DNA from: Streptomyces sp. NBC_01198
GTDB lineage: Bacteria; Actinomycetota; Actinomycetes; Streptomycetales; Streptomycetaceae
Direction: 5' to 3'
Length of the DNA: 64,000 bases
NCBI RefSeq assembly: GCF_036010485.1
Contig: NZ_CP108568.1
Coordinates: forward strand, 6,804,001 to 6,868,000
Below the pieces are notes generated by a model. The model had not been told where the DNA came from. It worked only from the letters and a program-made list of their open reading frames with translations, and searched no databases. A program made the position numbers and the translations under genes. This document shows positions 61,112 through 62,386 of this stretch, piece after piece. Each line of letters begins with the position of its first letter. Within the stretch, counting starts at the first letter, position 1.

Positions 61112-62386
61112 ATGCCCTTACGCGGACGCCACCGTCGTTACCGCCCGAGCAGGGTCTCCCAGGCCTCGCTGACCGTCACTGCGGGCGGTGCGGGTCTCGC
61201 GCTCCCGCTGATCGGGCTGAGCAGTGCGCACGCCGAGTCGGCCGGTGTGTGGGACAAGGTCGCCAACTGCGAGTCGTCGGGCAACTGGCACATCAACAGC
61301 GGCAACGGCTACTACGGCGGCCTGCAGTTCGCCGCCTCCACCTGGAAGTCCTTCGGCGGCGGCGCCTACGCCTCCCGGGCCGACCTGGCCACGAAGAACC
61401 AGCAGATCGCGGTCGCCGAGAAGGTGCTGCGCAGCCAGGGCCCCGGCGCGTGGCCGGTCTGCTCGGTGCGGGCCGGGCTCACCCGGGAGTCGGCCACCGC
61501 CTCGCACACCGTGAAGGTGCCGGCGTCGAAGATCCGGCCGGTCTCCGGGCACACTGGCACGGCGAAGAGCCGGGACAGGACGCCCGCCAAGACCCCGGCG
61601 AAGACCCCCGCCAAAACTCCGGCCAAGGCCGCCGCGAAGGCCCCGGCGGCGGCACCAGGACACGACCGCTACACGGTCGTCCACGGCGACACGCTGTCCG
61701 GCATAGCCTCCGACCAGCACGTCAGGGGCGGCTGGCCGCAGCTCTACGCCGACAACCGCTCGGTCGTCGGCGACGACCCCGACCTGATCCTGCCCGGCCA
61801 GCGGCTCGCGCTGTCCGCGCCGCAGGCGGCGCCCGCCAAGGCCGCGCCGAAGGCGGCCCCGAAGACCGCGCCCGCGCCGAAGGCGGCCCCGAAGGCCGTC
61901 CCGAAGGCGACGCCCAGGGCGGCCCCGAAGAAGACCGCCACCGCCGCGTCGGCCCACACCAAGCCGGCCACCGCCCCGCACACCGGCTACACCCTGCCGG
62001 TGCACGCCCCGCTCGGCACCCCTTACCACGCGTCGGGCAGCCACTGGGCAAGCGGCTACCACACCGGGATGGACTTCCTGGTCCCGACCGGCACCGCCGT
62101 GCACTCGGTCGCCGCGGGCAAGGTCGTCACGGCCGGCTGGGGCGGCTCGTACGGCTACCAGGTGGTGATCCGGCACGCGGACGGCCACTACAGCCAGTAC
62201 GGCCACCTGTCGCAGATCTCGGTCAAGGCCGGCCAGCACGTCAACGAGGGCCAGCGGATCGCCCGCTCCGGCTCGACCGGGAACGTCACGGGGCCGCACC
62301 TGCACTTCGAGATCAGGACCGGGCCGGTCTACGGCGACGACATCGACCCGCTGCGTTACCTGCGCGCCCACGGCGTGTCGGTCTGA
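61112..62386 (+). CDS. Secreted Rpf-LysM-M23 cell-wall hydrolase with a TTA codon
   Basis: A 424-residue exported protein. After the signal peptide (about 1-41) comes a resuscitation-promoting-factor domain (42-118) with catalytic Glu54 in [13 protein letters not shown], then a Lys/Thr/Ala/Pro-rich linker, LysM (about 186-235, [13 protein letters not shown]), a second Lys/Ala/Pro linker, and an M23 domain (about 305-420) with SGYHTGMDF and GPHLHFEI. It thus joins a lysozyme-like glycan cutter and a peptide cutter. Codon 3 is TTA (61118-61120), so translation should depend on the bldA tRNA. ATG 61112 has GGGGAGGA upstream. Confidence 0.93.

Follow-up and report, generated by a model that had tools for sequence, protein, structure and literature searches.

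The third codon of a gene for a secreted cell-wall hydrolase in Streptomyces sp. NBC_01198 is TTA, the rarest leucine codon in our sample of this genome, and comparison with relatives suggests that such genes are selected to keep one TTA somewhere rather than at a fixed site. The best explanation of this pattern, in our judgement, is that translation of the hydrolase is gated by bldA, the tRNA that reads the codon; judged on comparative sequence data, we put the probability of this reading at roughly 0.68. The window analysed here is a stretch of 64,000 nucleotides (positions 6,804,001-6,868,000) of a host genome that consists of one contig of 7.92 Mb.

A sequence-only reading of the window had placed a TTA at codon 3 of an Rpf-LysM-M23 gene, and the sequence, the Pfam domains and an analysis of the start all confirm this. 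The gene and its leader contain the following features.

61001-61030, + strand: conserved promoter-like element, CTTGTGG - N17 - TAATCT, from comparison of relatives
61096-61103, + strand: ribosome-binding-like sequence GGGGAGGA, 8 bases 5' of ATG 61112, with a counterpart in relatives
61112-62386, + strand: gene for the Rpf-LysM-M23 secreted wall hydrolase, 424 aa plus stop (stop codon 62384-62386)
61112-61234, + strand: putative signal peptide of 41 residues ending in AHA, read from the translation
61118-61120, + strand: TTA (UUA) leucine codon, codon 3, read from the sequence and kept in 29/29 genus orthologues
61247-61462, + strand: Rpf domain (Transglycosylas, PF06737), residues 46-117, Pfam E 2.9e-34
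61670-61810, + strand: LysM domain (PF01476), residues 187-233, by Pfam
62057-62344, + strand: Peptidase_M23 domain (PF01551), residues 316-411, Pfam E 4.4e-33

The gene product would be a secreted bifunctional peptidoglycan hydrolase that joins Rpf-type glycan cleavage and M23 endopeptidase activity to LysM wall binding. The metal motifs of Peptidase M23 are defined as HxxxD and HxH, and both are present (HTGMD at residue 317, HLHFE at 396), as is the Rpf glutamate region, CESSGNW at residue 53, whose Glu we take to be the catalytic residue. The closest named relatives for this gene belong to Actinacidiphila, with A. cocklensis at 89% identity, and the host genome was accordingly taken to be Actinacidiphila-like.

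The reading frame opens with ATG (61112), CCC and TTA, followed by CGC GGA CGC CAC. That the true start might lie downstream of the TTA, as the sequence-only reading had considered, was rejected: the next in-frame ATG, GTG or TTG is GTG 61247 (residue 46), which lies 3' of the signal peptide and would abolish secretion, so the TTA must be translated for a secreted product to be made. Upstream in-frame starts exist (ATG 61055, GTG 61031), and either would still contain the TTA. ATG 61112 is the start that aligns in relatives, where it is preceded by the ribosome-binding-like GGAGAGGA. Farther upstream, the promoter-like element takes the form CTTGTGG-N15-19-CTA in relatives and is found in 28 of 107 rows, namely 23 of the 25 in the window's clade together with L165-L167, L199 and L201, and nowhere else among them. 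A generic scan for sigma-70 promoters and terminators over 60900-62500 detected none, the CTTGTGG element included. A riboswitch controlling the hydrolase gene was also rejected, as Rfam gave no match at E up to 1 over 60800-61400 and cmscan of 33 of the 80 related loci gave no Rfam match at gathering score. The c-di-AMP riboswitch of the rpfA type (RF00379) in particular is absent from the hydrolase leader, and its sole match in the window lies at 52805-52993.

The rarity of TTA was borne out: it accounts for 21 of 12,272 leucine codons (0.17%) in 461 kb of the host genome (the window and 20 sampled stretches), a figure that is an upper bound because the called starts are over-extended; CTA is commoner in the same sample (61 vs 21). 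A crude ORF caller flagged TTA in 3 of 46 window ORFs, which cover 88% of the window. From reading the sequence, the IMPDH ORF probably begins only after its TTA (ATG at about 772), as does the DUF2382/PRC ORF (ATG 2826), so that codon 3 of the hydrolase is, as far as checked, the sole in-frame TTA remaining among the 46 called ORFs, in agreement with what the sequence-only reading had noticed. None of the host genome's other wall-hydrolase paralogues matched by our query has a TTA in the gene proper; the TTAs of L007 (codons 3 and 162 if counting begins at a start far upstream) fall outside the gene, the Rpf match beginning about 190 codons in. Across related loci, a TTA after codon 30 was found in 2 of 172 flanking crude ORFs versus 20 of 80 Rpf-LysM-M23 genes (Fisher p 2e-9, without correction for relatedness), and none was present in the aligned neighbour genes (LLM 0/13, PAP2 0/10, aldo/keto reductase 0/12).

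Full-length orthologues, at 61% identity or above, were found in 29 of the 35 genus genomes searched, and codon 3 is TTA in every one of them. On the protein tree of these 29 orthologues the TTA column requires no codon change, compared with three to nine changes (mean 5.9) for each of 11 other invariant leucine columns; 16 of 101 invariant degenerate columns are also without change, most of those not leucine. Codon 2 varies in amino acid and codons 4-6 vary synonymously, and the constancy of the TTA is therefore not a general freezing of the start. Taken from these sequences, the genus-wide TTA is beyond chance, and is probably a developmental ‘make late’ switch rather than an accident. Among the remaining genomes, G008, G014, G025 and G029 have more distant homologues, with GTA, GCA or another triplet at codon 3; G010 has a homologue (L203) that starts with GTG and whose one TTA, at codon 31, adds another site; and G021 has a shorter paralogue only. 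The neighbourhood is conserved as well: a divergent LLM-type gene lies upstream in 13 of the 80 named loci, which are all 13 of the named mates of the window's clade, and downstream on those 13 contigs there are mostly genes for PAP2 (10) and aldo/keto reductase (12). The other 67 named loci are without LLM, PAP2 and aldo/keto reductase neighbours.

Beyond the genus the picture is one of turnover. In 81 rows, comprising the best 80 named loci and the window, TTA occurs at codon 3 in 17, in the linker between the Rpf and LysM domains in 20, and not at all in 44. When 394 family genomes were surveyed by pattern, the start motif occurred with TTA in 36, and with any YTN at codon 3 in 44, of which 38 had TTA; checks, which included L211, showed that all six matches with CTN, and G304 among those with TTA, were other genes. 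Of the orthologues verified in the 394 genomes whose third codon is for leucine, 37 of 37 use TTA and none CTA or TTG, the survey pattern being one that fixes the flanking codons and that other versions of the start would escape. On a tree of 106 rows, built without the N-terminal columns, the codon-3 TTA needs eight changes, five of them forced by starred branches, and the linker TTA five, of which four are forced. The rows combine the best 80 matches with rows fetched for their TTA (the Streptomyces rows L210, L213-L217 and L224, with TTA at codon 3), and therefore the proportions are biased and the change counts are not frequencies. Left out before counting were 14 rows whose coding sequence is identical to that of another row, the very long branch L146, two repeats (L139 and L168), second copies together with a short paralogue (L200, L202, L204-L206, L208), and L212, which is apparently the same as L064 (without a letter-by-letter comparison). 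Judged from this tree, Streptomyces relatives gained TTA anew, either at codon 3 or in the linker that joins Rpf to LysM.

One clade of 19 rows (L064, L216 and 17 more) illustrates this movement. Eighteen of its members have exactly one TTA, in three different places: at codon 3 in L064 and L216, in the linker in L054 and L062, and at another linker site in 14 rows. The exception, L061, has none, and reads TTG where its sister L071 has TTA. Over all 107 collected genes, 59 have one TTA, 48 have zero and none has two. In the wider family, selection would thus hold one TTA per gene, whether as the third codon or between the Rpf and LysM domains, and not a fixed site. A bolder version of this idea, which we regard as evenly poised between right and wrong, is that of a portable bldA gate, in which the gene gives up its single TTA at one site and acquires it again elsewhere (at codon 3, at several linker sites or, in one genome, at codon 31), wiring the timing of the tRNA directly to an effector that would be lethal if made early, and not to a regulator. 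That orthologues keep the TTA was borne out within the genus, and the codon arises again elsewhere, but it does not extend to the 44 of the 81 wider rows without any TTA.

A sceptic could attribute codon 3 to composition, with A/T-rich triplets favoured for weaker mRNA structure near the start and TTA having no role as a bldA gate. Of the 81 rows, 59 do have a codon 3 that ends in A (GTA 23, TTA 17, GCA 10, GGA 9) and 50 have such a codon 5, compared with only 1 and 3 of the 81 at codons 2 and 4, and exchanging TTA for TTG, CTG or CTC stabilised the predicted start structure by 1.8-2.3 kcal/mol on average (fold of -40 to +40, 29 orthologues). However, CTA would serve equally well, with a folding difference of 0.16 kcal/mol; it is the commoner codon in the genome, and is one step from GTA just as TTA is, yet it appears in none of the 37 surveyed orthologues. 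Composition near the start also leaves unexplained both the linker TTAs far downstream and the absence of genes with two TTAs. We consider this account unlikely as a whole, while start-region composition may contribute to the signal at codon 3.

Drift, or transfer from a less GC-rich donor followed by persistence, would be another possible origin, and Streptomyces TTA codons are described as mostly poorly conserved, some being thought to be marks of foreign genes (PMC10327506, in the part available). Here, however, the TTA column shows no change across 29 species in which other leucine codons do change, TTA has been gained repeatedly and independently, and the neighbourhood is conserved, down to the LLM gene upstream in every named clade-mate; such a neutral or ancestral history is already disfavoured and, to our minds, very improbable. 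We give even less credence, to the point of near dismissal, to the TTA belonging to an element in the DNA or RNA, such as a regulator site or leader structure, that overlaps the start. The promoter-like element conserved upstream in the genus speaks for some such constraint, but codons 2, 4, 5 and 6 around the TTA vary synonymously, the leader varies in length, and the Rfam searches of the leader and of the 33 related loci were empty.

Gating by bldA, the reading that we prefer, finds its known components in the host genome. The sequence-only reading had assigned the codon to the bldA tRNA, and a tRNA-Leu(UAA) gene is indeed present (L128:16963-17047, anticodon taa, genome position ~5,158,962), the one UAA anticodon among 10 stretches picked from 63 tRNA matches for long tRNAs. 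The adpA orthologue of the host carries a TTA between its domains, and both halves of the known bldA-adpA wiring are therefore there, in outline. In S. griseus, ribosome profiling gave TTA the top pausing score of the 61 codons in the transition phase (PMC8914203, part of the text), and AdpA and the abundance of the bldA tRNA are reported to reinforce each other (PMC4255298, in the sections available). It should be noted that bldA-independent expression is also known for some TTA genes (PMC4932002, likewise in the accessible part).

Based on these comparisons we can offer a rough proposal. The mRNA, made from the conserved promoter-like element and without a detected riboswitch, would bear its single UUA at position 3. 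While charged tRNA-Leu(UAA) is scarce, ribosomes would pause just past initiation and little hydrolase would be made; as the bldA tRNA rises in the transition or developmental phase, together with AdpA, itself encoded by a gene with a UUA, translation would be freed. The wall-cutting activity would then appear late and could take part in developmental wall remodelling. A tRNA that accumulates late would suit a hydrolase made in aerial growth, in sporulation or in the wall turnover of stationary phase better than one made at germination itself, and a direct role in germination would need the hydrolase to be stored in spores. Counter-evidence includes the lack of TTA in 44 of the 81 rows and the GTA or GCA at codon 3 of distant homologues in the genus; with the first of these, the gate would be common but not universal. 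The original suggestion that this TTA gates translation through bldA is thus favoured by conservation, recurrence and the tRNA gene, but must be relaxed to a gate that part of the family lacks and that moves between sites.

The Rpf-LysM-M23 gene would in this way join the class of TTA/bldA genes, and its unusual feature is the turnover of the site. Like the established bldA-dependent genes, of which adpA is the type case, it has a single rare TTA, conserved over many species, in a genome with tRNA-Leu(UAA). The products of the known recurrent TTA genes are for the most part regulators, signalling proteins or enzymes of metabolism (in the accessible parts of PMC4255298, Table 2, and PMC10327506), whereas here it is the effector, a secreted wall hydrolase, and its TTA site differs by lineage. 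No Rpf or M23 gene is in the lists of recurrent or conserved TTA genes as available from those two sources, the available portion of PMC2000904 makes no mention of a TTA in an Rpf or M23 gene, and a full-text literature search, whose scope takes in little of the older subscription work, returned no description of one. If the proposal is true, bldA control reaches the wall-remodelling machinery directly. A TTA that moves and yet stays single would also let one ask, from naturally occurring variants, whether selection for bldA dependence works on the gene or on the site. The same system bears on whether a UUA just past the start makes a tighter gate than a UUA in mid-gene.

RpfA and other Streptomyces Rpfs resemble the window's protein in being secreted and in combining an Rpf domain with LysM, but lack its additional M23 endopeptidase. 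In S. coelicolor, germination is delayed in Rpf mutants (PMC5693915, in the part available), and control of rpfA is exerted through a c-di-AMP riboswitch (PMC10117811, from the accessible text), in contrast to the window's gene, at which none was found. The window holds a related gene with such a riboswitch directly ahead of it.

52805-52993: c-di-AMP riboswitch RF00379, 52 bits, directly ahead of the LysM-M23 paralogue
52999-53823: LysM-M23 paralogue, with no Rpf domain and no TTA

This paralogue is likewise a secreted hydrolase, with 62% identity over the LysM-M23 part, but differs in having the riboswitch and in being without both Rpf and TTA. Two related hydrolases thus lie at one locus, 8 kb apart, with a c-di-AMP riboswitch at one and a TTA in the other. 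Second Rpf-bearing copies are present in G014, G029, G025, G008 and G010 (L200, L202, L204, L205 and L206, respectively); they start ATG CCC G(CA/GT) AAG GGA AAG CAC, with a leader ending ggagaggaattc, like the start of the window's riboswitch paralogue. From this likeness in sequence, the riboswitch paralogue may have lost an Rpf domain. Elsewhere in the genome, two Rpf paralogues (G000 5149365-5151681) lie ~7 kb from the tRNA-Leu(UAA) gene (L128, about 5158962), and the window also contains an FMN riboswitch (RF00050, 98 bits) at 11600-11730.
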